A stretch of 37,949 nucleotides of DNA from a virus. Position numbers and translations under genes: made by a program. The notes beneath the pieces are model-generated. The model did no database searches, was not told the DNA's origin, and was given only the letters and a program-made list of their open reading frames with translations. The stretch lies in IMG/VR virus record IMGVR_UViG_3300035180_001355, positions 1 to 37,949 of that record; one strand, given 5' to 3'. Shown one piece after another: positions 1-37,949 of this stretch (its first letter is position 1; every line of letters begins with the position of its first letter).

Positions 1-107
1 GAGGCGGGTTACCTCGCCTCATTTCACTGTACGGATTTCCTGCGTCAGGGCGAAACTACACCAACAGTTTACCAGGACCCGATTACCCATCTCGTCATGC
101 TCCGACC
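1..107. repeat. Terminal direct repeat (circular-map overlap), left copy
   Basis: Bases 1-107 are identical to bases 37843-37949. The tail gene beginning at 37798 reads in frame through the right copy and on into base 108 and beyond, so the repeat is most simply the overlap of a circular assembly. A circular map fits a phage with circularly permuted DNA. A true short terminal repeat lying inside a gene is possible but less likely. The non-redundant genome is 37,842 bp. Confidence 0.9.
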
Positions 108-2256
108 CAACTACGACACGACGGGCTCATCGTCGGACACCCTGCCGCTTTCGTCCTATAGCTACCAGTCCGAGTACTGGCGGGGCTCCTACGATTCGCA
201 CGGGCGCCTGTCGCTCTCGCCCATACTGCCCGCAAACCACGACCCGACGCTCATCGAGCTACTGGTAGACATTGCCAGATACTTCATATTGGGCAGCCTC
301 CCGCAGAACGACACGGTCCTCTGGGCGATCCATACGAGAGAGACGCTCCGGGCAGACGAGGGTTGGACGTTCTATTGGAAGCCGATCTCGGATGAGTACC
401 AGCGCAAAGAAGATTGGTTCTACCTGCAATGGGACAACATCGGGATACATATCGGGCAGGCGGGCAGGTGCCGCGTGCTCCTCTATGACCGGAGTGACAT
501 GACCAAGACCCCGACGCTCGTCGAGGAGTTCAGCTACGGGCGACCCGAAGACCTCGTTGAGCACGGGATCATTTCGTTCATCCCGGTGCCCGGAGTTGGG
601 CTCTTGTTCCACACGAAGCGGGTTGCACCGGGAGCCCCGGCACGTGCAGCGCGCGCTGAGCTATGGACGACGAAGGGACACCTAATCCGCTTGCCGACGA
701 CGTTCGACGCGGCGGGGGTGCCTCACATCACGTACGAAAGCGCCGTCCACATCGCGCTCAACCCCTGGGCGTTAGCGAGGGTAGCCGTTGGGCGAGTGAG
801 CTATGGCACGAGCGGCGTCTACGTCGACCAGCCGCGCGACCTCGGCATACCCGTCCCGACGCAGCCCGTTACGATCACGCCGTACTACATTAAGCCCCCG
901 GGCACGAGCGTCTCAGCCGCGGCCAACAACGTCGACGGCACGCCCTACGATCCCGGCAGTCACCGCTATCGGGCGCAACTGACCCTCACGACGACGAACA
1001 ACTGGCTGACGCCGTTCGTTACCGGCTACACGGCCTACAAACCCTCCGTCCAGACCGCGCGGAACACGACGCCGATCGTTCTGGCAAACGTGAGCGACGA
1101 CGGCACAGCGGATCGCCTCCTGCATCTCGAATGGTCACAGGACGAGCGGGACCGGTTCGAGGGGCGGGCAGTCACACTCCTGCAGACCCCAGCGGCGCGA
1201 CGCATTGCCGAGCGGGCCGACACCGTGTTCAAACTGGAGCAGAGCGCAGATAATCAGACGTGGAGCACATTGTTTGGCGGCATTACGCGCAAACCGACGC
1301 TGAAACCATTCGGCGGCGCGGGGCCGTGGGCCTACATCGCCGAGTGGACCCTGCAGGATATCTGGAGCCGGTTCGAGGAGGTACGCGTCCTGTGGGCACC
1401 GCGACAGGACAATATGGCGGTTGGCGATGCCATCAACCAGATACTGGCGACGGTGGGTTTCGCCCCCATCTCGCCTGTGCCGGACGCCGTGAACGCCGTC
1501 ACGCTTCCGAAGATTGCGACTCCGGATTTGTCGTGGCAGTTCGCGCCGCGAGAGGGTGACAGTCTGGAGCAGATGCTGGAGACGCTCCTCCTGTTCCTGC
1601 GGGCGCAGTTCGTGGACTGGAAGATGCCGTACAACTGGGACACGGGGCAATGGTCCATCGTTCAGCGGTCGCGCGACGTCTCGGCGTTCTGGACGCTCGA
1701 CCCGCGTCCCGGCACTGCGAACGCGAACAACCGCGTGTGGCAGTACGGCGACGACACGACCCTGCGCCCGGAACCGCCGGAGGGCACGACGCTCCTGCTC
1801 ATTGGGCGGGCGACGGCTATGCCCGTCACGAACACGCCCGGGGTTTCAACGGGCAGCTCGACGACGATCGCCATCACGTCCAAACTCCAGAACCCGGCGG
1901 CAGGCGACCCGGCGAGCCTCGACTATGCCGGGCGGAACATCCCGGTCATGATCCCCATGTACCCGATCGACGATCAGAAACAGTTGGACGTCATGGCCAG
2001 ACGCCTGTTTGACATGATCATGCATCGAATGCTTGTGGGCACAATCTCGATACCGATCTACCAGCCCCTGCTCACGCCGGGCACGCCCGTCAAACTGCTC
2101 GACACGACCGGCACGCCGCTCAGCGTCGATGCGCCGAACGGCAAATCGAGCGAGGCAGATATCCTCTGGATCAAACGGCGGACAGTAACCATCGACCAGA
2201 ACAACGCCGAGACGGAAGTGCTAGAGCTGAACTCGATCTGGGAGGCGTTGCAATGA
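1..2256 (+). CDS. Large tail-tip / baseplate hub-like protein (3' part; starts at 37798 across the circular join)
   Basis: The frame is open from base 1. On the circular map it begins at GTG 37798, giving about 766 residues in all; an ATG at 97 would cut off the N-terminus. The protein follows the tape measure, the usual place of distal tail and hub proteins. Two stretches look hub-like: the middle segment with GDAINQILATVGF and GDSLEQMLETLLLF, and the C-terminal segment with LTPGTPVKLLD. I infer a tail-associated hub protein that connects tube to tip; no catalytic motif is visible. Its stop overlaps the next start (ATGA at 2253), suggesting coupled translation. The exact family is not recognised. 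Confidence 0.8.
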   Translation, partial: EAGYLASFHCTDFLRQGETTPTVYQDPITHLVMLRPNYDTTGSSSDTLPLSSYSYQSEYWRGSYDSHGRLSLSPILPANHDPTLIELLVDIARYFILGSLPQNDTVLWAIHTRETLRADEGWTFYWKPISDEYQRKEDWFYLQWDNIGIHIGQAGRCRVLLYDRSDMTKTPTLVEEFSYGRPEDLVEHGIISFIPVPGVGLLFHTKRVAPGAPARAARAELWTTKGHLIRLPTTFDAAGVPHITYESAVHIALNPWALARVAVGRVSYGTSGVYVDQPRDLGIPVPTQPVTITPYYIKPPGTSVSAAANNVDGTPYDPGSHRYRAQLTLTTTNNWLTPFVTGYTAYKPSVQTARNTTPIVLANVSDDGTADRLLHLEWSQDERDRFEGRAVTLLQTPAARRIAERADTVFKLEQSADNQTWSTLFGGITRKPTLKPFGGAGPWAYIAEWTLQDIWSRFEEVRVLWAPRQDNMAVGDAINQILATVGFAPISPVPDAVNAVTLPKIATPDLSWQFAPREGDSLEQMLETLLLFLRAQFVDWKMPYNWDTGQWSIVQRSRDVSAFWTLDPRPGTANANNRVWQYGDDTTLRPEPPEGTTLLLIGRATAMPVTNTPGVSTGSSTTIAITSKLQNPAAGDPASLDYAGRNIPVMIPMYPIDDQKQLDVMARRLFDMIMHRMLVGTISIPIYQPLLTPGTPVKLLDTTGTPLSVDAPNGKSSEADILWIKRRTVTIDQNNAETEVLELNSIWEALQ

Positions 2257-2498
2257 TCGCTTCAGCAGCGGCACGGCGGGCAATGCGACGGGCGAACCAG
2301 CGAATCATGGAGCGCGCGGCGGGCCGCCTGCCGTCGGTCATTCATACAGCAGCGGACCAAGTGTTTGAGCGCCAAGCCAGCGGTCTGTCGAGCCTCACCG
2401 TCATTCCGGACACGTCAAACCTACAAGACCCCGCGACTGGTGCGTTCTACTTCCTCGCCGGATATAGCGCGGTCGGTGGACCGGATATAGTGAAATGA
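2253..2498 (+). CDS. Small hypothetical tail-region protein (81 aa)
   Basis: The 81-residue protein has a basic, Ala/Arg-rich N-terminal helix (residues 1-30) and a polar C-terminal half. Its ATG overlaps the preceding stop, and its stop overlaps the start of the 997-residue protein, so it is locked between two tail genes in a coupled chain. That spacing is the best evidence that it is real. Size and place would fit a tail assembly factor or small tip subunit, but no family is recognised. Confidence 0.7.
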   Translation: MIASAAARRAMRRANQRIMERAAGRLPSVIHTAADQVFERQASGLSSLTVIPDTSNLQDPATGAFYFLAGYSAVGGPDIVK

Positions 2499-5488
2499 TC
2501 CTACGAACGGGCCGGACGCGGACGCTAACCCTGCGCGGGGCGATCACGAGCAGCGTTGAGTGGCACACGGTGTTCATGAACGGCACCCTCATCCCCACGT
2601 GGAGCTATCCGGAGATCTATGCTCAGGCTCCGTGGGGCGCATGGGTGAGCCTGTCTGGCTACGTCGTGAACCAGTTTCCGCCCGGGCAAGCGAACCTAAC
2701 GCTGGAGGCCGGGTACGGCGCTGGGAGCAACACGCGGACCATTTCGACCGCGTTCGGCATGGAAGAGGTCATTCCTATCAAAGACCCGATCCTGTTCACG
2801 GTGCCGGTCGAGGAATGCGTCGAGATCACGCGTGAGATATGGGACGACATCACCAACCGGCCCATCCCGGTGTCCGAATGCGCCGACCCAACGCTTCTGA
2901 CGCGCGATAAGTACGTCGGGCACCCGCTTTACAAGCTCAGGTTGTTTGAGCGTATGGTCGTAGGCGGGCAGATGACGACGAGCGTCACCGCGAACGGTAC
3001 GACGGTTACCTACTCCGTTCCAGTGACAACCGCGGACGAGGTCGATTACAGTGTCTATGTGACGCAGGACCTCACGGCAGAGGCCCGCACGGCCTCAACG
3101 TCGATCACCTGGACGCTAGAGGGCGGTGGCAGCACGGTACCGGCTTATCTGCCAAACTACTCCTACTCAGATAGCTATTGCACTGCCTCCGCCTCAGCGG
3201 GCGCGACAACCGTGAACCTGCTCCAGTCAACGAACGTTCATCTGCAGGTTGACGTCGGATACTATCGTTCCTACTCGATCACCGGGGCGCTCAAGGCGTA
3301 CGATGTCGCCTATCCCGGTTCGGTAGCAATACTGATAGACGAGGATAACCAGCACCTTGGCAAGCGATCGCTCGTCGCGGATGGGTGGAGCAACTCGGGC
3401 AAACAGATTTTCCACGGAACGATCGTCGGGAACCGGGACGGCGTTCAAATGCCGACCGTAGGCATGGAGGACACCCGTTGCGCCCTATTCGCCGCGTTGT
3501 CGGAGGGACCGGTGGACGGTGACGCCTACACTCTCTCCGCGCTCGGCGAGGACGTTGACGACCTCTATGTGAGGTTCAGGTGCTGGCCGACGTTCAGCGC
3601 AGTCACTGCGAATAACTTCATATTTACCTTCGATAACTGCTCAACACTCACTCCCGGGGGCAACCTGGCTGGCCAGTGGACTGGGATCGGCGGCGCGGCC
3701 CTCGCCATCGAGAACGCGCAGATCAGGATTGACACGGCTGCGAGCGGGGCGCAGGGCATTCGCAGGACGTTCACGAACCGTTGGGCGAACCTCTCGCAGG
3801 GCATCATGGAGCTCGTCATGACGGGCCCCGCAGGCCCGGGCATAACCGTCACGCTCTATTCGCCGACTGGCGCGACGAAAACGTGGACACACGATTGGAT
3901 GGGCAGGCCGATCGACCTCAGCCTCGGCTACCCGATCCCCGACCTGTGCAACCCGGACAGTGCGACGGCGGCGGTCGACACCTGGGACACCCGTTGGCCG
4001 CTGCCAACCGTTGACTCCGACTACTCCGGCGTCACGAGCTGCAACCAACTAGAGATCACTGGCCTGCAGAACTCGCAAACGTACCATCTCATCAATCTGG
4101 AGGTCGCCTGGGCGAGCAGGACGAACGTCACCTGCATGGCGTCTCGCGCGAACTGGGTGCTCGAACAGGCGGCGCAGATCAGCGAAGGCGTCACGAGCCA
4201 GACCTACATCGTACGCGGCATTCTTGGCATGTCGGACGGCAGGCAGTCGTTCGAAGATGGGCACGCCCGGCTGATCGCCGTTACGTCGTCGGCAGGCACA
4301 GACTACGAAATGTACGAGGTGCCGATCAGCACGCTTCTGTCCACGACCGGTAACGCGCAACTGGAGCCGTGGCCGCCCTATCCGGGCTGGACTATGACGG
4401 GCACGATCGTGAGCGATCCGGCAGACGGAGGACTGCTTAGCGACTGGCTCAATACGAACCGGTACCTGGGTTGGCTTCGCGGCGGCGGGTGGGCCTACAT
4501 CCCCGGCACGGGCTGGGTGGCCGGAACCGACATCCCCGCGGGCGCGCCATCCCAGACGGCTGACCTCTATGCTCAAGTCTGCGTCGACCGGATCGACTGG
4601 TATCCTGGCTGCGGCGACGCGTTCTCGTTCAGCTCGACAAACACGGGAGCGTATGGCGACACGATCTACCTCGCTGCGGCAGCAGTCCTTCGTGGTGGCG
4701 GGCATGGGCTCGTCTACGGTGGCGACCCGCGCGTACCCGTCAATGCACAGACAGTGACGAACACGGACACGGTCACGAATGACAGCGCAGGGACAGGCAC
4801 GAGCAACACGATCGGCTGGTGGGAGAGCGGCACCCCGTTCGGACGGGGCGAGCGGTCCATCAAAACCGCGGCAGGGGCGCAGTTCGCCTACACGACCTGG
4901 CACAATCGCAAGCGACAGCGGGTTGTTCTCTCGGTGGCGACGCCTACCGCCTATCGCTGCGTCGAGTACGACCATCCGAGGAACTGGCTCCATGCGTCGG
5001 ACGCGAAGAAGGTCAAAACGGCTCACGCATGGGACTTCGCAGCCCTAATGCGGAGCACTGACTACCCGTACACGTGGATGAGATTGCGCGCGAACCCGCA
5101 TAACGGATCACTGCTCATGCTGGGGATCACCCCGGCAACTGCGCCGCCCTACACGTACCATGTCTGCTATGGAAAGGACGGCGGCCTTACCACTCAGGAG
5201 CTATTTAGCATGACAGCAAACTCGGCATTGATCGAGCATGACCTCGCTCGTGGCCTGTGGGTGCTCTTCTACGAGACCGGCGGGGCGATACAGCGGCGGA
5301 CTTGTAGCGACGCGTCGGATATGAGCTCATGGACGACGGCGACGGCCCTGGCGATCTCGGGCACGCTCCTGGACTGTGCCTACGACCGCCGGTATGCGCG
5401 CATGGCGCTCGTTACGACATCGGGTAGCGTGACCAAGGTGCTCTCGTCGAGCGACAGCGGCGAAACCTGGACGGAAAGGCTGGTGTGA
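2495..5488 (+). CDS. Large tail protein with Asp-box-like C-terminus (997 aa)
   Basis: This is the longest complete gene. The sequence is rich in Thr, Ser, Gly and Trp, as in beta-rich virion proteins. Near the C-terminus SSDSGETWTE matches the Asp-box pattern (S-x-D-x-G-x-T-W) of beta-propeller (BNR) repeats, and KDGGLTT earlier is a weaker match, so residues from about 790 may form a propeller-like domain. Asp boxes occur in many carbohydrate-binding virion proteins. I infer a tail-tip or fibre component that contacts the host surface. It starts four bases inside the preceding gene. The N-terminal two thirds are not recognised. Confidence 0.8.
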   Translation: MILRTGRTRTLTLRGAITSSVEWHTVFMNGTLIPTWSYPEIYAQAPWGAWVSLSGYVVNQFPPGQANLTLEAGYGAGSNTRTISTAFGMEEVIPIKDPILFTVPVEECVEITREIWDDITNRPIPVSECADPTLLTRDKYVGHPLYKLRLFERMVVGGQMTTSVTANGTTVTYSVPVTTADEVDYSVYVTQDLTAEARTASTSITWTLEGGGSTVPAYLPNYSYSDSYCTASASAGATTVNLLQSTNVHLQVDVGYYRSYSITGALKAYDVAYPGSVAILIDEDNQHLGKRSLVADGWSNSGKQIFHGTIVGNRDGVQMPTVGMEDTRCALFAALSEGPVDGDAYTLSALGEDVDDLYVRFRCWPTFSAVTANNFIFTFDNCSTLTPGGNLAGQWTGIGGAALAIENAQIRIDTAASGAQGIRRTFTNRWANLSQGIMELVMTGPAGPGITVTLYSPTGATKTWTHDWMGRPIDLSLGYPIPDLCNPDSATAAVDTWDTRWPLPTVDSDYSGVTSCNQLEITGLQNSQTYHLINLEVAWASRTNVTCMASRANWVLEQAAQISEGVTSQTYIVRGILGMSDGRQSFEDGHARLIAVTSSAGTDYEMYEVPISTLLSTTGNAQLEPWPPYPGWTMTGTIVSDPADGGLLSDWLNTNRYLGWLRGGGWAYIPGTGWVAGTDIPAGAPSQTADLYAQVCVDRIDWYPGCGDAFSFSSTNTGAYGDTIYLAAAAVLRGGGHGLVYGGDPRVPVNAQTVTNTDTVTNDSAGTGTSNTIGWWESGTPFGRGERSIKTAAGAQFAYTTWHNRKRQRVVLSVATPTAYRCVEYDHPRNWLHASDAKKVKTAHAWDFAALMRSTDYPYTWMRLRANPHNGSLLMLGITPATAPPYTYHVCYGKDGGLTTQELFSMTANSALIEHDLARGLWVLFYETGGAIQRRTCSDASDMSSWTTATALAISGTLLDCAYDRRYARMALVTTSGSVTKVLSSSDSGETWTERLV

Positions 5489-5491
5489 GAG

Positions 5492-6244
5492 ATGGCGATC
5501 ACAACGCTCAGCGGCACTCTGCCGACCTCAGTGACTGCAGCAGGCGTGAGGAACTACTCGACGGGCGACGCGGTTTCAGCGGCGGGACTGCAGGCGGATC
5601 TTGGCGACGCGTACGCCCCGGCCATGTACTGCCTCCCGGCGGGCGTGGTGCTCGGGTTCGCCTGTACGCCCTCTGGTCTCGGCGTAACGATCCCTGCGGG
5701 ATCTGTCTGGTACGCGCGGCAGGTCTGGCTCGTGACTACGGATACCGTGGTAACGGTGCCGGACAACGCGACGACCTACCTCTGGGGTTGCTCGGACGGC
5801 GTGATCAGACAGACGTCAACGACCACTCCGCCGACAGGCTACTCGGCATACACGGCGGCGATTGTCGCGCAGGTCTCGGCCTCGGGCGGAAACGCGACCG
5901 TTGCGGCCTACAAACAATGGGCGATGGGCAGTTCGATTGTTCCGGTCCCGGGCGGCCTCACGTCGATCACCGGGACCCTTCCGGACGCGGATTACACGGT
6001 ACTCCCGGCGCAGTATGCGGGCGAGGTCATTCTGGTGGCGCACACGGGCTGGACATCGACGCACAATCTGCTCATGCCGCTCGCCGCGGGTATGCTCCGC
6101 TGGATCGTCAACACGTGCGGGCAGTCGATCGTCGTCAAAGGCGCGACGGGCACCGGCCCGACGATCGCGAACAGTCGGGCGGCCTGTGTCGTCTGTGATG
6201 GAACGAACTGGCTTCGCCTTACCGCGGATTCGGTCTTGACATAG
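5492..6244 (+). CDS. Tail fibre / tip structural protein (250 aa)
   Basis: The 250-residue protein is low in charge and rich in Thr, Ala, Gly and Val. Its N-terminal region (SAAGLQADLGDAYAP, then PAGVVLGFACTPSG) resembles segments of other phage tip and fibre proteins. It begins three bases after the 997-residue gene. A competing frame on the same strand (5485-6198) is Arg/Gly-rich, as expected of a shadow. The end of this gene carries the -35 box of the next promoter, so the late structural transcript and the lysis transcript overlap here. Structural role inferred from composition and place; no enzyme motif. Confidence 0.75.
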   Translation: MAITTLSGTLPTSVTAAGVRNYSTGDAVSAAGLQADLGDAYAPAMYCLPAGVVLGFACTPSGLGVTIPAGSVWYARQVWLVTTDTVVTVPDNATTYLWGCSDGVIRQTSTTTPPTGYSAYTAAIVAQVSASGGNATVAAYKQWAMGSSIVPVPGGLTSITGTLPDADYTVLPAQYAGEVILVAHTGWTSTHNLLMPLAAGMLRWIVNTCGQSIVVKGATGTGPTIANSRAACVVCDGTNWLRLTADSVLT

Positions 6245-6265
6245 ACGCGCGCAAAGGCGTACAAT
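6236..6265 (+). promoter_or_regulatory. Sigma-70-type promoter for the lysis/adhesion operon
   Basis: TTGACA at 6236-6241 and TACAAT at 6260-6265 are separated by 18 bases. The -35 box lies inside the last codons of the preceding gene. A leader of about 150 nt follows before the ATG at 6422. Spacing and downstream leader closely match the promoter at 23807. Confidence 0.8.
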
Positions 6266-6286
6266 GACCGCAACAGCATACAGGCA

Positions 6287-6338
6287 GGCTTTGCGAAGCC
6301 CGTTTCCGGCTCAGACGATCCGGGGCGGGCTTCCGTCG
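6287..6338 (+). promoter_or_regulatory. Structured leader element, copy A (nut/put- or attenuator-like)
   Basis: The transcript from the 6236 promoter begins with GGCTTTGCGAAGCC (6287-6300), a 5-bp stem with a TGCG loop. After 25 nt comes CGGGCTTC (6326-6333), which is fully complementary to GAAGCCCG at 6295-6302, the right half of the first hairpin plus two bases. The two pairings exclude each other. The 14-nt hairpin and the sequence GGGCTTC-N-GTCG recur, with almost the same spacing, in the leader at 23859. The rest of the gap to 6421 has no gene. I infer transcription control by antitermination or attenuation; this is untested. Confidence 0.6.
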
Positions 6339-6421
6339 CCTGTGATACCCGCCGTGAGCGCACCGGCGCTTGGACCTGACAGCGCGAACGTCCAGAACTC
6401 CCGCGACGGGGGAGGCGCAGG

Positions 6422-6769
6422 ATGACCATTGGAGGAATGTGTCCATTGGCAGATAGGCAACTTTGCGACCAGGTGGTAACGCTCGGCAAGGCGGTGCCGG
6501 GCCTCATCGAGACGCTCAACGCAAACGGCGTGATGCTGGCGCGGATCGAGGAGAAGGTCAGTTCACTCCCAGAGATCGCGCGTGGGCAGCACGAGGCGGC
6601 GCAGCGTTTAGCCGCGCTAGAGGAGCACCTGCGCGCGGCCGAGGCGCGCATCAGCTCGCTGGAGAAACAACAGGATGACTCGCGCCGGTTCCTGATCTCC
6701 GCCATGTTCGCCGCCGTTCTCGGGTTCGTGACGGGGATAATCGGTTTGGCACTGCACGGTAATCGTTAG
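6422..6769 (+). CDS. Coiled-coil plus C-terminal TM protein, XhlA-like (115 aa)
   Basis: Residues about 25-87 are heptad-rich (LEEHLRAAEARISSLEKQQ), and residues 88-111 form one strong membrane segment (FLISAMFAAVLGFVTGIIGL). This coiled-coil-then-anchor layout is that of XhlA-like proteins, which help holins and endolysins at the membrane in several Gram-positive phages. The gene is the first of the transcript that carries the endolysin. ATG 6422 has GGGGAGG just upstream. A role in lysis is inferred from layout and neighbours; a membrane-anchored tail or exclusion protein cannot be excluded. Confidence 0.7.
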   Translation: MTIGGMCPLADRQLCDQVVTLGKAVPGLIETLNANGVMLARIEEKVSSLPEIARGQHEAAQRLAALEEHLRAAEARISSLEKQQDDSRRFLISAMFAAVLGFVTGIIGLALHGNR

Positions 6770-6791: not shown

Positions 6792-7223
6792 ATGGGCACT
6801 ACTCAGCTCGACATCACTCAGCTCGCGGCGAAGGTCGATCAGTTGATCAAACAGCTTGCGGCTATTGCACCGCGGCACTGGAAGGGGAACTGCCCGCCCG
6901 ACGCGCATCATTTCGATGCCGGGAGCATTCAGGCCGACGCGTCGGCGGACGTGGCCGCGAAGACCGTGACCCTCCGTTTCCGGTTCACCGACGGAGGGGC
7001 CCCGCACGAGGTAGGGGCGACTATGCGATGGGATCAGATCGGCATTCGAGGCGGCGCGGACGTCGTGACCGTTGACGGTGTGCAGCTCTCTGGCGCAGAT
7101 TGCGTGATCGGGCACCGAGAGGGGCTGGAGGGTCTGCACTGGTATGCGCGCATCGTCTGCGAGTTCCGTGGCAATCTCCCGACCGGCGCGCCGGTGCATT
7201 ACCGGTTTGACGGAGACCTCTAA
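6792..7223 (+). CDS. Hypothetical protein in lysis block (143 aa)
   Basis: The 143-residue protein starts with a short amphipathic helix (about residues 5-25, QLAAKVDQLIKQLAAI), followed by a beta-rich region with alternating hydrophobic residues (VAAKTVTLRFRFTDGG, VHYRFDGDL). Its ATG has AGGAGG at 8-nt spacing, and its TAA overlaps the ATG of the endolysin gene. No signal peptide, membrane segment or catalytic motif is seen. It could be a small virion or lysis accessory protein. Family not recognised. Confidence 0.65.
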   Translation: MGTTQLDITQLAAKVDQLIKQLAAIAPRHWKGNCPPDAHHFDAGSIQADASADVAAKTVTLRFRFTDGGAPHEVGATMRWDQIGIRGGADVVTVDGVQLSGADCVIGHREGLEGLHWYARIVCEFRGNLPTGAPVHYRFDGDL

Positions 7224-7723
7224 TGCCAGACCTTCCATGCTTTTGGCGGGGTGCTAGGGCATTCAAACCGGGGCGCACAGGTTCGATTAGCGCGATCATT
7301 CTGCATTCGTCCGATGGGCACGAGCAGGGTGACCTCGAAACGCTCACCGGGCCGGAAGTGTCGTCGCACTACTACGTGACGCGCGCGGGCAAGCTTTACC
7401 GGCTCGTTCTGGATCGAGACACTGCGTTTCACGTCGGGAAGGCGGACAAGCCGGAGCACAGCAATGGCCGAACGCTCGGGATCGAGCAGGAGCACATCGA
7501 CGGGCAGGACGATTGGCCTGACGCCCAGCTCACGACCGTCGCGCGCCTCGTCTGTGCGTTGCGGGAGCAGTACGGGCATTTGCCTGTTCTTTCACACGCC
7601 GCGGTGGCCGTACCGCCTGGTCGCAAGGTCGACCCTCAGGGGTACCCGTGGGACAAGCTCAGCGAGGCAGTGGCGGCGGAGGCAGGTCAACGGTGGAAGC
7701 TCCTGCCTAAACAGGGAGGGTAG
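7223..7723 (+). CDS. Endolysin, N-acetylmuramoyl-L-alanine amidase (Amidase_2)
   Basis: The 166-residue single-domain enzyme would cut the amide bond between N-acetylmuramic acid and L-alanine in peptidoglycan. Visible Amidase_2 features: zinc-ligand His28 in IILHSSDG, SSHYYVTRAGKLYRLV with Tyr50/51 near the active site, GIEQEH at 86-91, and His125 followed by GRKVDPQG, where Lys135 and Asp137 sit at the places of the catalytic Lys and third zinc ligand of T7-type lysozymes. There is no cell-wall-binding domain and no signal peptide, so export needs a holin. The gene touches the preceding one, and a holin-like gene begins two bases downstream. Confidence 0.93.
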   Translation: MPDLPCFWRGARAFKPGRTGSISAIILHSSDGHEQGDLETLTGPEVSSHYYVTRAGKLYRLVLDRDTAFHVGKADKPEHSNGRTLGIEQEHIDGQDDWPDAQLTTVARLVCALREQYGHLPVLSHAAVAVPPGRKVDPQGYPWDKLSEAVAAEAGQRWKLLPKQGG

Positions 7724-13082: not shown

Positions 13083-13147
13083 CTCGTTTCTCCTCCGCTG
13101 CGTCCCGGGTCGGTGACGGCTTACGCGGGCTGGGTTTGCCTCATCAG

Positions 13148-13190
13148 CACGGGGGGAACCACCTCCCCGTGGACCGGCCCGGAGGCCGGT
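13148..13190 (-). terminator. Two adjacent hairpins after the 69-aa gene
   Basis: CACGGGG (13148-13154) pairs with CCCCGTG (13165-13171), and ACCGGCC (13173-13179) pairs with GGCCGGT (13184-13190) over a 4-nt loop. They lie just beyond the stop of the minus-strand gene ending at 13200. Neither has a clear U-run on the minus strand. They may be a weak terminator or an RNA-stability element. Confidence 0.45.
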
Positions 13191-13199
13191 TTCGGCAGG

Positions 13200-14153: not shown

Positions 14154-14182
14154 TTGACAACTGCGCGTCGGCGCAGTATCAT
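14154..14182 (+). promoter_or_regulatory. Early promoter with an operator-like palindrome in the spacer
   Basis: TTGACA (14154-14159) and TATCAT (14177-14182) have 17-nt spacing. The spacer is almost filled by a perfect dyad CTGCGC-gtcg-GCGCAG (14161-14176). A protein bound there would block polymerase. The next gene encodes a Cro/CI-like protein, so self-repression is likely. Confidence 0.8.
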
Positions 14183-18388: not shown

Positions 18389-18780
18389 AAGCGGGTGATA
18401 TGGTGGTCTGCGGGCCGGACTGCGTTCGAGCGCGCGTCGTGCGGGTGAGCAGCGCGCCGCGCAGGAGCAGCGATGACGAACTGATCCCGCGCCCCGCGAC
18501 CATCGTGACATGCGAGATGCCGTGGGGCGCGCACCGCTCGTACTGGGCGGATGATCTGGAGTTAGTTGAGCCCGCTCCTCCCGGCACGGACGATGTGACA
18601 GGCGGGACCGGGGTAGGTGACGTCGTCCGGCATAGGTCGACCGGACTGCGTGGCCGGATTGAGTCCGTTACGCTCAGGCCGCGACAGGTTGGCAGGGAAA
18701 CGGAGGAGTATCGGGTGTTCGTCGTCGCGCTCGAACCCGGCCAGCAGGCGATCTGGTGGGACAGCGAGATCGACGCATAG
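18385..18780 (+). CDS. Tandem KOW/SH3-like repeat protein, copy 2 (131 aa)
   Basis: A paralogue of the preceding gene: MKAGDMVVCGPDCVRARVVRV with MPWGAHRSYWADDLEL in the first half, and GDVVRHRSTGLRGRIESV with QQAIWWDSEIDA in the second. The two genes together hold four copies of the barrel, so an internal duplication was followed by gene duplication. ATGA overlap with its sibling suggests fixed-ratio production. Function unknown. Confidence 0.7.
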   Translation: MKAGDMVVCGPDCVRARVVRVSSAPRRSSDDELIPRPATIVTCEMPWGAHRSYWADDLELVEPAPPGTDDVTGGTGVGDVVRHRSTGLRGRIESVTLRPRQVGRETEEYRVFVVALEPGQQAIWWDSEIDA

Positions 18781-18805
18781 GACGGAGGGACGGGAGACGC
18801 GGAGG

Positions 18806-19483
18806 ATGGCGCGAAGACCGAAGGCGAGTGAACCGGTTCCGGTGACCGAGGCGATTGCATACCTGCGCGTTTCGACCGCCAAGCAGGCCGCCAGCGGCCT
18901 TGGCCTCGAAGCGCAAAGGACGCGCATTGAGGCCCATTGCAAGGGGCGGGGTTGGAAGTTGGTCGAGACATTCACCGACGCAGGCGTGTCGGCGAAGACT
19001 TTGGACAGGCCGGCCCTGGCCGCCGCGATTGCAGCTCTGCGCCCCGGCCGTGCGCTCGTGGCTTTGGGGCTGGACCGTCTGACGCGCACCGCCAGCGACT
19101 TGGACGACCTGATCGCCCGCGTTCAGGCTACCGGCGGCGAATGGGCCACGGTTGAGGGAAACTGCGATACATCGACTGCAATGGGCCGCTGCATAATGCG
19201 GTTGATGGCGGGGATCGACGAGATGGAGCGTGAGATGATCGCTGAATGCGGAGACCGCGGCCTGCCCGAGCTAGTCTGGCACCCCTGCAGTGAATGCTTG
19301 CCAGAGACCCGTGGGCGCGTGCTGGTGACCATTGAGCGCCGCGGCCAACGGTTCACGGCGGTGGCGGCGTACATCAGTGAGCAATGGTACCTCGACGGAT
19401 TCGAGCCTCTGACCGCGCGCGTGCTGGCATGGGCGGAGCAGCCGGAGCCGTGGGACGGAGAGGCGGGGGAGCATGATGCCTGA
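18806..19483 (+). CDS. Serine recombinase catalytic domain fused to a DUF551-like domain (225 aa)
   Basis: Residues 14-147 are a resolvase/invertase catalytic domain with its active-site set: AIAYLRVSTAKQ (Ser23), LEAQRTRIEAH, LDRLTR (Arg91, Arg94) and the MEREMIAE start of helix E. In normal family members a helix-turn-helix or recombinase/zinc domain follows. Here the chain turns at residues 148-155 into LPELVWHPCSECLPE...VLAWAEQPEPWDGEA, a DUF551-like domain nearly the same as the next gene (MPELTWNRSADRLPD...PWDGEA). No DNA-binding domain remains. ATG 18806 has GGGAG at 9 nt. It may be a defunct integrase remnant or a regulatory chimera. Confidence 0.85.
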   Translation: MARRPKASEPVPVTEAIAYLRVSTAKQAASGLGLEAQRTRIEAHCKGRGWKLVETFTDAGVSAKTLDRPALAAAIAALRPGRALVALGLDRLTRTASDLDDLIARVQATGGEWATVEGNCDTSTAMGRCIMRLMAGIDEMEREMIAECGDRGLPELVWHPCSECLPETRGRVLVTIERRGQRFTAVAAYISEQWYLDGFEPLTARVLAWAEQPEPWDGEAGEHDA

Positions 19484-19721: not shown

Positions 19722-19772
19722 GTGATCGACAACAAGAGGCGTTGGCAGCGCTAGGACACACAGGATTGCTGG

Positions 19773-19849
19773 CCCTAGAGAGGGCCTGGATTCGCCGACC
19801 TCGACCTGTGCGGGGACTGCCAACCAGGCGTACCAGGTTCTCTCTAGGG
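19773..19849 (+). promoter_or_regulatory. Long structured leader upstream of the primase gene
   Basis: Bases 19773-19789 and 19833-19849 form a continuous 17-bp stem: CCCTAGAGAG with CTCTCTAGGG, two G-U pairs, then CCTGG with CCAGG. The 43-nt cap contains CGCC/GGCG able to pair further. A U-rich stretch (about 19853-19874) and the Shine-Dalgarno follow. The shape fits a transcription attenuator or a replication-control RNA. No gene is seen in 19686-19886. Confidence 0.6.
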
Positions 19850-19886
19850 TCAGTTTGTTTGTCTGTTTGTTTTCAGGGAGGGAGAA

Positions 19887-23574: not shown

Positions 23575-23838
23575 GTGCACCGCTGCCCGCTCCTCGTCTG
23601 CCCGGCCTGCGGTCGCCCGCTGATCGAGCGGGAGGGTAACGGCATGCTGGCGGTGCACGTCCATGATGAGCGGGAGGACCCGTACACGGGCGTCAGGACG
23701 GGCCGCTGCCCGGACGGACGTTGCAATCAGTACGTCCGCTGGGACCACAGGATGCTCGTCTGCGCCGTCATTTCGCAAATGCGTCTGATGGATTTGCAGA
23801 TAGTGCTTGACAAACGCGGCAGGGTTCGCGTAGAATAG
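23575..23838 (+). CDS. Zinc-binding small protein, start uncertain (87 aa from GTG)
   Basis: The frame from GTG 23575 gives HRCPLLVCPACGRPL and a second pair in RCPDGRCN, so a zinc ribbon is likely. GTG has no properly spaced Shine-Dalgarno, since GAGGAG overlaps it. In the same frame, ATG 23533 has GGAGG at a good distance and overlaps the nuclease stop, but an in-frame TGA at 23569 ends it after 12 residues. Either the gene was broken by a nonsense change, or the 12-residue peptide couples translation to GTG, or the TGA is read through. The end of the gene contains the late promoter. Confidence 0.6.
   Translation: MHRCPLLVCPACGRPLIEREGNGMLAVHVHDEREDPYTGVRTGRCPDGRCNQYVRWDHRMLVCAVISQMRLMDLQIVLDKRGRVRVE
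23807..23836 (+). promoter_or_regulatory. Promoter for the packaging/head/tail operon
   Basis: TTGACA (23807-23812) and TAGAAT (23831-23836) are 18 nt apart, the same spacing as the 6236 promoter. The -35 lies in the last codons of the preceding gene, again as at 6236. It would feed the long late transcript beginning with the ParB-like gene. Confidence 0.8.
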
Positions 23839-23858
23839 CACGACAATCAAACATTGGC

Positions 23859-23909
23859 GGCTTTGCGAAGCCTCGCCGAGGGCCGACGCCCCCGGAGGGG
23901 CTTCTGTCG
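23859..23909 (+). promoter_or_regulatory. Structured leader element, copy B (nut/put- or attenuator-like)
   Basis: GGCTTTGCGAAGCC (23859-23872) is identical to the hairpin at 6287. After 24 nt, GGGGCTTC-T-GTCG (23897-23909) follows, whose GGCTTC can pair with GAAGCC of the hairpin. A third option is GCCCC-cgga-GGGGC (about 23888-23901), followed by TTCTGTCGTTTCT, which looks like a terminator. Switching between these folds would control entry into the late operon. Inferred from sequence only. Confidence 0.6.
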
Positions 23910-23927
23910 TTTCTGGGTAGGGAGACT

Positions 23928-24497
23928 ATGCCGACGATTGCTGATCTCAAGCTGGACAAACGGAATGCGCGCAAACGCGGCCCGCGGGCGGAGGGGATGC
24001 TGGTCGCCTCGCTGCAGGAGGTGGGCGCGGCGCGGTCGATTGTGATCGACGAGGCCAATCGCGTGCTGGCAGGCAATGGAACTGTCGCCGCCGCCGCAGA
24101 GGCTGGTATCGAGCGCGTCAAGGTCGTGGACGCCGACGGCGAGACGATCGTCGCGGTGCGCCGGAGCGGCCTGAGCGAGAAGCAAAAGGCGCGTCTGGCA
24201 CTGCTCGACAACCGCACCGCTGAACTCGCCGAATGGGACGCGGAGATGCTCGCCTCGCTGGCGGAGGATGGCGTAGAGCTAGACGATCTGTGGAGCGCGG
24301 ACGAGCTAGGGGCGATGTTGGCGCAGTTTGACCCGGATTCGCTCGTCGACCGGTTTGAAGCGAAATCGGACGTGGAGGGTGTGACGGTGACGTTTACGTT
24401 CACGGGCGAGGACGTGGATATCGTCAAAGAGGCGCTGGAAAGGCGGCCAAGGCCGGAGTGGCAGGCCGAGCTCCTGAGGTTGTTCCAAGATGCCTAG
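23928..24497 (+). CDS. ParB/sulfiredoxin-like nuclease-fold protein (189 aa)
   Basis: Residues 1-80 follow the ParB N-terminal fold (DLKLDKRNARKRG, SLQEVGAARSIVID, VLAGNGTVAAAAEAGIERVKVV). Residues 80-110 carry LALLDNRTAELAEWD, a stretch typical of the phage ParB-like proteins that are joined to or encoded beside DNA methylases. In this family the GxR/GNGT loop binds nucleotide in some members. Here the partner is a radical SAM enzyme, whose start overlaps this gene's end by 8 bases. First gene of the late transcript, just ahead of the terminase. A role in DNA marking or packaging is inferred. Confidence 0.85.
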   Translation: MPTIADLKLDKRNARKRGPRAEGMLVASLQEVGAARSIVIDEANRVLAGNGTVAAAAEAGIERVKVVDADGETIVAVRRSGLSEKQKARLALLDNRTAELAEWDAEMLASLAEDGVELDDLWSADELGAMLAQFDPDSLVDRFEAKSDVEGVTVTFTFTGEDVDIVKEALERRPRPEWQAELLRLFQDA

Positions 24498-25500
24498 CTG
24501 CGGCAGTCAGGCATGGCTCTGTGATCTCCCGGTCAGGTTTGACACCTACCGCGAATGCTCGCACGGGTGCGCATATTGTTTCGCGCAGCGAAAAGCCAGA
24601 CCTGGGCAGACGGGGGAAACGGTAAAGGCGCTGGAACATTGGATCGAAGGCCGGCATGGTAAAGACGCGCAATGGTGCGACTGGAATATCCCGCTGCATT
24701 GGGGCGGGTTCTCTGATCCGTTCCAACCATGCGAGGCGGCAGAGAAGCGGAGCCTCGCCTGTCTGGAACTCCTCGCGAGGACGCAGTACCCGGTCGTGAT
24801 CAGCACCAAGGGCCGTCTGGTGGCGGAACGGCCTTGGATCGACCTCATTGAGAAAGCAAATGTCGTCGTGCAGATATCGGCGGTTTGTTCCAAATACGAC
24901 CGGATTGAGCCGGGCGCGCCGACATGGGTGGAACGCGTTGAAATGATGCGCAAGCTCGCGGCCCGAGGCAAGCGGGTCGTCATTCGCGCCCAGCCATACG
25001 CGCTGGGACTGAGGCTGGACGTGATCAGCGCCATTGACGCCTACGCGGATGCTGGAGTATACGGGATAATCGTTGAGGGAATGAAGCGGAGTTCGAAGCG
25101 CCCTGGATTGGTCAAGGTTATGGGTGACTGGTGCTTCCCGCTCGAACCCCTGCGCGCGGATTTCGCCGCCATTCGCGATGCCGCACGCGCTCGCGGCTTA
25201 CGGTTCTATGTGGGAGAGAACCGCTTGCGCAGGATGGGCGACAGCCTCACATGCTGCGGGATAGATGGGCTGGAAGGGTTCGCTCCGAACGTCGCAAACC
25301 TGAATCATAGTGGACCCTCGGAAAGACCGGAATACACTCCGGCGATGCTGAGACCTGGAACGGGGGGTCCGTTTCGCAGTATAGGTCAGAGAACCCTTTT
25401 TGGAAAGCATATATGCGAGGGCTCATTCGCGGATGCGATGGAGCGCATGAGGCGCTGCAGGCCGGCCCTGGAGGCGTTGGGTTATCGGGTCGCAGAGTAG
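24490..25500 (+). CDS. Radical SAM enzyme of unknown substrate (336 aa)
   Basis: YRECSHGCAYCFAQRK holds the Cys23-x3-Cys27-x2-Cys30 triad that binds the [4Fe-4S] cluster and SAM. Further parts fit the radical SAM barrel: HWGGFSDPFQP (after the cluster), VVISTKGRLV, and VVVQISAVCSKYDRIEPG with RVEMMRKLAARGKRVVIRAQP, as in spore-photoproduct-lyase-like members. Cysteines near the C-terminus (LTCCGIDG, HICEGS, RRCRP) could hold a second cluster. Encoded between a ParB-like protein and the terminase. It may modify or repair DNA before packaging; the substrate cannot be told from sequence. Confidence 0.85.
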   Translation: MPSCGSQAWLCDLPVRFDTYRECSHGCAYCFAQRKARPGQTGETVKALEHWIEGRHGKDAQWCDWNIPLHWGGFSDPFQPCEAAEKRSLACLELLARTQYPVVISTKGRLVAERPWIDLIEKANVVVQISAVCSKYDRIEPGAPTWVERVEMMRKLAARGKRVVIRAQPYALGLRLDVISAIDAYADAGVYGIIVEGMKRSSKRPGLVKVMGDWCFPLEPLRADFAAIRDAARARGLRFYVGENRLRRMGDSLTCCGIDGLEGFAPNVANLNHSGPSERPEYTPAMLRPGTGGPFRSIGQRTLFGKHICEGSFADAMERMRRCRPALEALGYRVAE

Positions 25501-25511
25501 GTGATGCAAAG

Positions 25512-25934
25512 ATGGCAGTCGAACCGGATGTAACGACAGAAAAGGGCGAACGACGTTGGTGGGGCCGGTTCTTTCAAGCCCTCGCCGAGACCGGCATAGT
25601 GACGCAGGCGGCGCACGCGGCAGGGATCAACCGACTGACGGCCTACCGGCACCGCGCGAGCAACCCGGAGTTTGCGAAACGCTGGGAAGAGGCCGAACAG
25701 CGCGGTATCGACATGCTGGAGGACGTGGCACGCAAGCGCGCGATGCAGTCTTCCGATACCCTGCTGATCTTCCTGCTCAAGCACAAGCGCCCGAACGTCT
25801 ACAACCCGCCCGTTCGATCACAGGTGGAGATGGATGTCGCTGCCCTATCCGACGACGAGCTTCGACAGCGTATCGCGGAGCTTGAGGGAACAGTACTATC
25901 TACGGCTGCTGGCAAAGAGACTGTCGGCGAGTGA
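25512..25934 (+). CDS. Terminase small subunit (140 aa)
   Basis: An N-terminal helix-turn-helix (FQALAETGIVTQAAHAAGIN, then RLTAYRHRASNPEFAKRWEE) is followed by a helical core (GIDMLEDVARKRAMQ) and LLIFLLKHKRPNVY, the usual ending of this family before the oligomerisation tail. It recognises phage DNA and hands it to the large subunit. ATG 25512 has only a weak Shine-Dalgarno (AGGTGA). Its last 101 bases overlap the large-subunit gene in another frame, an unusually long overlap. Confidence 0.85.
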   Translation: MAVEPDVTTEKGERRWWGRFFQALAETGIVTQAAHAAGINRLTAYRHRASNPEFAKRWEEAEQRGIDMLEDVARKRAMQSSDTLLIFLLKHKRPNVYNPPVRSQVEMDVAALSDDELRQRIAELEGTVLSTAAGKETVGE

Positions 25935-27258
25935 TGCAAGCTACGCCGACTGGCTGCTGCAGACGTACCCACACGGCTGGTACCTGCCGCGGCACATTCG
26001 GCGGGTGGCGCGCGACGTCGACGATGTTCTGCAGGGCCGGTGCGACCGCTACGCCGTCAGGATGCCGCCGAGGCACGGGAAAACCGAGAACGTCACAGTC
26101 AGGTTGGCGGTGCGGATGCTGGAGCTGGACCCTGCCGCGAATGTGCTGATCTCGGGTTACAACGAGCGGTTCGCGCGGCGGCTGGGGCGCAAGGCGCGGA
26201 ACCTCGCACAGGGCCGGATTGCGATTGCGCAGGACAGCACGGCGGCGGATGAGTGGCACACGACGGCGGGCGGCGCGATGATGACCCGCGGTATGGGAAG
26301 CCCGCCGACGGGTACTGGGTTCCGGCTGATCGTGATCGACGACCCGATCCGGAGCCGGGAGGATGCCGAGAGCGACGTCAAACGCGAGGCGGCGTGGGAC
26401 CACTACACGGACGACCTGCTGACGCGGTTGGACCCGGGCGGCTCGATTGTGATCGTGATGACGCCATGGCATGAGGACGGGCTGGACGCGCGGGCGATTG
26501 CGAGCGAGCCGGACAGGTGGCGGGTGCTGAGCCTGCCGGCCCTCGCGAAGGCGGACGATCCGCTGGGCCGCGCGCCGGGCGAGGCGTTGTGGCCGGAGCG
26601 GTATGATCGTGATGCGTTGCTACGTATCAAGGCCGTTATGGACCAGAACGATGGCGAGCGCAGTTACGAAGCGCTTTACCAGCAGAACCCTCAACCGAGA
26701 GAGGGTTCGATCTTCAAGCCGGACCGAGTTCGAATCGTGGACGATCCGCCGGCGGCTCCTACTGCTCTCTGCCGAGCGTGGGACTTCGCGGCGACTGCAG
26801 GCGGAGGCGACTACACGGTGGGGGTGCTGATGTGTCGGGCAGCGGACGGGTCGTTCGGCGTGCTCGACGTCGTTCGCGGGCGCTGGGCACCGGATGAGCG
26901 AGACGCACAGATGCGGCGGGTCGCGGAGGTCGACGGGCGCGCGGCGCTGATCCGCATTCCGCAGGACCCCGGACAGGCTGGCAAGGACCAGGTTCTGCGC
27001 ATGGCGCGAATGCTGGCGGGATGCAACATGCGGTCGGCTCCCGTGACCGGCGCGAAGGAGGTCAGGGCCTCCGGGTTCGCCTCGCAAGTCAACGCGGGGA
27101 ACGTCTGGGCGATTCGAGGCGCGTGGAACCACGCGTACCTGTCGGAGTTGCGCTCCTTTAGGGAGGGCTGCTTGCGCGATGACCAGGTAGACGCCAGCGC
27201 GGACGCATTCGCTGAGTTGGCCGGGGCGCGCCGGATGCGCGTACTGGGGGATGACTGA
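25834..27258 (+). CDS. Terminase large subunit, ATPase-nuclease (474 aa)
   Basis: The N-terminal ATPase has Walker A PPRHGKTE (78-85), Walker B LIVIDD (165-170) and the coupling motif MTPWHEDG (209-216). The C-terminal nuclease has CRAWDFAAT with GGDYTVG (about 312-328) and the closing DDQVDASADAF acids. It pumps DNA into the prohead and cuts concatemers. Permuted ends and a circular map would fit headful cutting. The start at 25834 (GGAG at 4 nt) lies well inside the small-subunit gene; no later Met before Walker A exists, and TTG 25882 is the only alternative. Confidence 0.95.
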   Translation: MSLPYPTTSFDSVSRSLREQYYLRLLAKRLSASDASYADWLLQTYPHGWYLPRHIRRVARDVDDVLQGRCDRYAVRMPPRHGKTENVTVRLAVRMLELDPAANVLISGYNERFARRLGRKARNLAQGRIAIAQDSTAADEWHTTAGGAMMTRGMGSPPTGTGFRLIVIDDPIRSREDAESDVKREAAWDHYTDDLLTRLDPGGSIVIVMTPWHEDGLDARAIASEPDRWRVLSLPALAKADDPLGRAPGEALWPERYDRDALLRIKAVMDQNDGERSYEALYQQNPQPREGSIFKPDRVRIVDDPPAAPTALCRAWDFAATAGGGDYTVGVLMCRAADGSFGVLDVVRGRWAPDERDAQMRRVAEVDGRAALIRIPQDPGQAGKDQVLRMARMLAGCNMRSAPVTGAKEVRASGFASQVNAGNVWAIRGAWNHAYLSELRSFREGCLRDDQVDASADAFAELAGARRMRVLGDD

Positions 27259-37797: not shown

Positions 37798-37949
37798 GTG
37801 TACTGGCGATTGACGCTAGACCAACCGTACGTCTGGCCCACTGAGGCGGGTTACCTCGCCTCATTTCACTGTACGGATTTCCTGCGTCAGGGCGAAACTA
37901 CACCAACAGTTTACCAGGACCCGATTACCCATCTCGTCATGCTCCGACC
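37798..37949 (+). CDS. 5' part of the large tail-tip / hub-like protein (continues at base 1)
   Basis: GTG 37798, with AGGAG at 6 nt, opens MYWRLTLDQPYVWPTEAG and reads unbroken to the end of the window. On the circular map it continues from base 108 to 2256, giving about 766 residues. The first 51 residues lie here, and 35 of them are repeated at bases 1-107. See the entry starting at base 1 for the protein as a whole. Confidence 0.82.
   Translation, partial: MYWRLTLDQPYVWPTEAGYLASFHCTDFLRQGETTPTVYQDPITHLVMLR
37843..37949. repeat. Terminal direct repeat (circular-map overlap), right copy
   Basis: Identical to bases 1-107. It lies within the coding region that begins at 37798. Confidence 0.9.

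Follow-up and report, generated by a model that had tools for sequence, protein, structure and literature searches.

Each of the two late promoters of the phage studied here is followed by a copy of the same structured RNA element of 56 to 64 nt, which appears to represent a new leader RNA family with a putative regulatory role and, judging from its sequence and placement, most likely controls the behavior of RNA polymerase or of the newly made transcript. The stretch of DNA that we analyzed (hereafter the window) comprises 37,949 nt, i.e., positions 1 to 37,949 of IMG/VR virus record IMGVR_UViG_3300035180_001355 on one strand, and originates from a virus of bacteria with two late gene blocks. 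Its ends carry an identical terminal repeat of 107 nt (1 to 107 and 37843 to 37949), and the record is therefore circular or circularly permuted with a length of ca. 37.84 kb.

Late unit 1 is a lysis unit of ca. 5 kb that starts with a holin/XhlA-like gene (6422 to 6769 (+), ATG at 6422; a weak match) and encodes an Amidase_2 endolysin downstream of it (7223 to 7723 (+)). Late unit 2 is the structural unit and begins with genes for a ParB-like protein, a radical-SAM-like ORF, and the small and large terminase subunits (23928 to 27258 (+)), followed by portal, head, neck, and tail/tape-measure genes; on the circular map, it extends over ca. 20 kb via 97 to 6244 up to promoter 1. Elsewhere, a serine recombinase gene (Resolvase; 18617 to 19483 (+)) is located downstream of RecE/RecT genes in what is possibly an integrase or recombination module, and no prophage was found in a portal scan of bacterial genomes.

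A shared element downstream of both late promoters

The two predicted late promoters are sigma-70-like with 11 of 12 consensus bases each, TTGACA-18-TACAAT for late unit 1 (6236 to 6265 (+)) and TTGACA-18-TAGAAT for late unit 2 (23807 to 23836 (+)). The 18-nt spacer emphasized by the initial annotation is indeed present in both, but it is not a conserved trait, with copy 1 having 17 nt in all relatives. Similarly, the -35 box lies inside the end of the preceding gene in both cases as described (ORF 5492 to 6244 for promoter 1 and ORF 23575 to 23838 for promoter 2), but at copy 2 the same is true for the -10 box (stop codon TAG at 23836 to 23838).

As proposed from the sequence initially, both promoters are followed by the same hairpin sequence, GGCTTTGCGAAGCC, at 6287 to 6300 and 23859 to 23872, which are its only exact copies in the window and begin 21 nt (copy 1) and 22 nt (copy 2) after the -10 box. 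A second block, GGGCTTC-N-GTCG, is found at 6327 to 6338 and 23898 to 23909 with 11 of 12 positions matching between the copies, and its separation from the hairpin is 26 nt in copy 1 and 25 nt in copy 2 rather than the 24 to 25 nt given previously. When 500,000 pairs of window segments were drawn at random, only 5 had a shared run of at least 14 nt at matched offset, so that the shared element is not a product of chance even before the second block is counted. No copy is present at the other strong promoters at 14154 (+), 19693 (+), 14035 (-), and 13502 (-).

Several observations tie the element to the start of transcription and not to translation. Its distance from the -10 box is 20 to 22 nt across all copies, and its basal stem begins an estimated 7 to 13 nt downstream of the predicted transcription start, but its distance from the start codon varies from 19 to ca. 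83 nt. Copy 1 lies ca. 80 to 83 nt ahead of the start codon of the holin-like gene, a spacing that shifts in relatives, and copy 2 lies 18 to 19 nt ahead of that of the ParB gene in the window and ca. 40 nt ahead of a start codon in relatives without this gene. Copy 2 is thus retained where the ParB gene behind the element is lost. Specifically, the ParB-like gene (23928 to 24497 (+)) is not directly behind the element in six relatives (L005, L009, L013, L017, L026, and L035), which have another reading frame at this position.

Predicted folding of the leader RNA

Each copy folds as a single composite hairpin composed of a basal stem P1, an asymmetric internal loop, and a stem P2, and both copies match the covariance model (copy 1, 6280 to 6343 (+), -37.4 kcal/mol; copy 2, 23856 to 23911 (+), -32.5 kcal/mol). 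The earlier view of a structured, repeated RNA element linked to both late promoters is supported. P1 consists of ACAGGC[A]GGC/GUCGCCUGU in copy 1 and of GGCGGC/GUCGUU in copy 2, and the internal loop places UUUGC opposite one nucleotide (in copy 1, 6290 to 6294 (+) opposite the single nucleotide 6334). P2 starts with GAAGCC/GGCUUC in both copies and has 16 bp in copy 1 (6295 to 6333 (+)) and 15 bp in copy 2 (23867 to 23904 (+)). The second block can thus pair with the right half of the hairpin as anticipated, but the pairing extends well beyond this segment into the full 15 to 16 bp of P2 plus the basal stem. None of 200 dinucleotide shuffles were as stable as copy 1 (z -4.9); for copy 2, this applied to 8 of 200 shuffles (z -1.9 for the entire fold and -2.9 for P2 alone).

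The distal part of P2 differs in sequence between the copies, including a G-C/C-G exchange adjoining the core, yet it is paired in both, and this is the main argument for a site that acts as RNA rather than as DNA. With the core kept fixed, the distal pairing is significant in copy 1 (p = 0.006 against genomic segments and p = 0.036 against dinucleotide shuffles) as well as in copy 2 (p = 0.001 and p = 0.014, respectively).

The initial annotation also suggested mutually exclusive stems, and an early and a long hairpin can indeed fold in both copies. The early form, GGCUU-UGCG-AAGCC (6287 to 6300 (+) in copy 1 and 23859 to 23872 (+) in copy 2), makes the whole fold 7.6 kcal/mol (copy 1) or 5.4 kcal/mol (copy 2) weaker than the long form. 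This hairpin, GGCUUUGCGAAGCC, is predicted to form first on the growing chain and competes with the long hairpin for the same segments; the long composite hairpin is the ground state and the 14-nt hairpin its weaker, earlier alternative. Because GGCUU occurs in both the 5' and the 3' block, AAGCC can pair with either of them and GUC takes the other, and the predicted pairings amount to a two-state arrangement irrespective of whether it is used. A U-tract after P2 is absent from both copies, and the combination of a G+C stem with a U-tract that defines an intrinsic attenuator is therefore not seen. We also considered and discarded a possible sigma-dependent pause as at putL, signaled by a -10-like motif immediately upstream of the element; this motif is present in the window copies and, by eye, missing in several relatives.

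Other RNA features of the window are found outside of the late leaders. A type II hammerhead ribozyme (13130 to 13197 (-), 54.5 bits) is located ca. 50 nt before the start of the leftward ORF 13082 to 12405, and hammerhead ribozymes between leftward genes are also present in relatives L013 (one) and L003 (two). In the same region, a pair of strong promoters that resemble each other in sequence face leftward, and GTAAGYCGYYACC is shared by three leaders on that strand (14035 to 13941, 13502 to 13409, and 13124 to 13082 (-)) ahead of the start codon. Allowing up to one mismatch, this motif has four matches, including one away from these leaders at 19360, compared to 0.18 expected by chance. The ribozyme may provide a downstream gene with a leader of the type that other genes obtain from a promoter. 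Furthermore, the leader of the primase gene (19728 to 19886 (+)) is nearly invariant in seven relatives and has a predicted fold of -69 kcal/mol (z -3.7) with a stem of ca. 22 bp; a local hairpin, GGCCCUAGAGAGGGCC, competes with this stem, and a U-rich tail follows the fold in the window and two relatives.

Conservation within one group of phages

A pattern scan, a terminase scan, and the covariance model all place the element in a single group of phages with 83% to 98% identical terminases, and every record of this group that covers a site carries it. Both copies are present in four genomes (the window, G001, G002, and G003), and copy 2 is found in ca. 15 contigs. One of these genomes, G003, exceeds a single genome length and apparently holds copy 1 twice in two variants. 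The UUUGC loop is unchanged in all 11 distinct aligned sequences from both copies and in one additional row for copy 1 (L159). Changes within the copies affect the apical loop, a 1x1 mismatch, or the single 3' loop nucleotide or otherwise preserve pairing; the few pair-breaking changes occur in P1 only, and the fold is compatible with every copy except for these isolated P1 mismatches. None of the 12 core pairs shows a two-sided change, and formal covariation of the core is nil. The search with a covariance model that the initial annotation had called for thus found the expected recurrence in the close group but only limited covariation, because all relatives are close and the sequences are few.

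Divergence values show that the element is maintained, as it diverges 4- to 6-fold less than 4-fold-degenerate sites (17% to 19%). Copy 2 diverges by 2.9% compared to 17.3% at 4-fold-degenerate sites of the upstream gene, and copy 1 diverges by ca. 5% in a hand count on the alignment (ca. 0.05, used in place of the automated value of 0.089, which is affected by edge misalignment). Behind the element, the remainder of leader 1 (6345 to 6421 (+), ending before the ATG at 6422) shows a pairwise difference of 2.3% compared to 19.3% at 4-fold-degenerate sites of the downstream gene. Together with the initial codons of the holin-like gene, this remainder (6345 to 6450 (+)) is conserved at least as strongly as the element and may contain a second signal.

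Beyond this group, the covariance model gave no credible match across ca. 80 distant terminase relatives. The best distant candidate, L134 (E 0.06), was rejected because its palindromic sequence gives a match on the opposite strand as well. Outside the group, viral contigs and bacterial genomes scanned with relaxed patterns yielded only matches without fold or promoter, some of which are dispersed Bacteroidota-type repeats, and the distant loci have no convincing promoter-leader pair of similar kind. Rfam contains no ribozyme or other described family that matches at the element.

Possible functions and comparison with known systems

We tentatively favor, at somewhat below even probability, a cis-acting element of the nascent RNA that acts on transcription of the ca. 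20-kb and ca. 5-kb late units, either by itself in the manner of put or by means of a protein. The local hairpin GGCUUUGCGAAGCC would form first as the RNA leaves the polymerase and would be displaced in favor of the long hairpin once the 3' arm GGGCUUC appears. The internal loop displayed in this way might then be bound by the transcription machinery, i.e., by host RNA polymerase directly as with HK022 put or by a protein of the host or the phage that rides with the polymerase as with LoaP or lambda N/Q, and the polymerase would become processive over the structural and the lysis unit. This explanation is favored by the identical core at both late promoters and its absence from other strong promoters, by the presence of the element in all records of the group that cover a site, its constant distance from the -10 box, the distal P2 pairing, and its low divergence with an unchanged UUUGC loop. 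It is disfavored by a fold unlike that of put, by the folding of copy 2 being unexceptional for its composition (z -1.9), and by the thin covariation. No terminator-like site was recognized in the stretches scanned near both leaders; alongside the ca. 20-kb length of late unit 2 this speaks for the nascent-RNA explanation, but it also means that no early terminator to be overridden was found there.

A protein partner was sought among known families. Profile searches of the phage found no NusG protein (PF02357, a profile that matched in 10 controls) and no member of the Antiterm and Phage_antitermQ families (PF03589 and PF06530), in line with the earlier observation that no Q-type gene is recognizable, and the lack of an antiterminator among the tested families counts against the nascent-RNA explanation; the profile of a third Q-type family, PF06323, matched none of its own controls. 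By position, the candidate for a late regulator and partner of the element is a Cys-rich, zinc-ribbon-like protein of 87 amino acids encoded immediately upstream of promoter 2 and element copy 2 (23575 to 23838 (+)), just as the lambda Q gene is located directly before the late promoter. Its AlphaFold model is of low confidence (pLDDT 68), and a fold search with this model gave no significant match. The ORF is found in all contigs with copy 2, which proves nothing given their linkage.

Next in probability, though doubtful, is an RNase III processing site or 5' stabilizer at which cutting or protection of the helices around the asymmetric loop sets the lifetime and 5' end of both late mRNAs. 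In its gross architecture the element resembles the R1.1 hairpin of phage T7 with two helices around an asymmetric internal loop, and such a site would tolerate any distance from the start codon, matching the observed variation. However, it needs neither a fixed promoter distance, which T7 RNase III sites are not known to have, nor an invariant internal-loop sequence; the 7 to 12 unpaired nucleotides expected before P1 are not ideal for a 5' protector; and covariance model R1 had no match in the T7 stretch searched.

We consider it unlikely that the early and long hairpins constitute an attenuator or a ligand- or protein-operated switch that decides whether the late transcript continues. GGCUU, AAGCC, GGCUUC, and GUC allow two alternative pairings, with both states folding in both copies 5 to 8 kcal/mol apart, and the long fold does not require that the 5' block and the 3' block both contain GGCUU (a recurrence with a chance, estimated roughly by hand, of 0.1% to 1%). 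Against an attenuator stand the missing U-tract after P2 in either copy, the lack of a terminator-like site nearby, and the mere 18 nt between element and start codon at copy 2. A DNA operator from which a regulator represses or activates both late promoters at ca. +15 is improbable, since a perfect 5-bp dyad (GGCTT-N4-AAGCC) that is equally spaced from the two promoters and occurs nowhere else would suit it but leaves the second conserved block GGGCTTC-N-GTCG and the distal P2 pairing with its differing sequence unexplained. Just as improbable is a binding site for an RNA-binding protein that acts on translation or late-mRNA fate, for which a conserved internal loop within a helix is a common shape and copy 2 lies immediately before the ribosome-binding site, but copy 1 is ca. 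80 nt from its start codon at a distance that changes in relatives.

The nascent-RNA explanation invites comparison with three known systems. With lambda Q/qut, our phage shares a long late operon and a strong late promoter that immediately follows the final gene of the early region, but the Antiterm and Phage_antitermQ families are absent here. Moreover, lambda Q works via promoter DNA, and the Q system is not known to include a shared leader RNA. In the LoaP system, two long operons have nearly identical small hairpins in their leaders, and the dfn hairpin is of the UNCG type (PMC12691694). The leader hairpin common to two operons is a likeness. The alternative hairpin of our element has a UGCG loop and is identical in both copies, but it is the less stable fold here. 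Differences are that the phage has no NusG-family protein (a host-encoded one is possible) and that no leader terminator was found.

The put elements of phage HK022 (putL and putR) are two promoter-linked, structured copies per genome of ca. 70 nt each, with putL just after its promoter (PMC9378689). They resemble our element in being two promoter-linked copies near the transcript start, in size (56 to 64 nt here), and in that no dedicated protein was found here among the families tested. In contrast, put serves early genes and is formed by two stem-loops that meet at an unpaired base, in a V-shaped arrangement that includes an RNA triplex, whereas our element lies at late promoters and folds as a single composite hairpin. 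HK022 has no match to model R1. By the tests made, the element is thus a member of neither the put nor the Q system. RNA elements that alter their own polymerase are rare, and the late promoters of phages are the site of neither put nor the LoaP hairpin. Our phage, which has no recognized Q gene and naturally carries the element twice with the same conserved internal loop, is an easily testable case that could explain how the very long late operons of such phages are fully transcribed. The put RNA suppresses pausing and termination via the zinc-binding domain of beta' without any phage protein. The boldest form of our proposal, which we regard as rather unlikely, is an antiterminator RNA with a new fold that works without a protein and governs late gene expression in both late units simultaneously. 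If true, it would be a second class of phage RNA besides put that acts directly on polymerase, and it would do so at late promoters.
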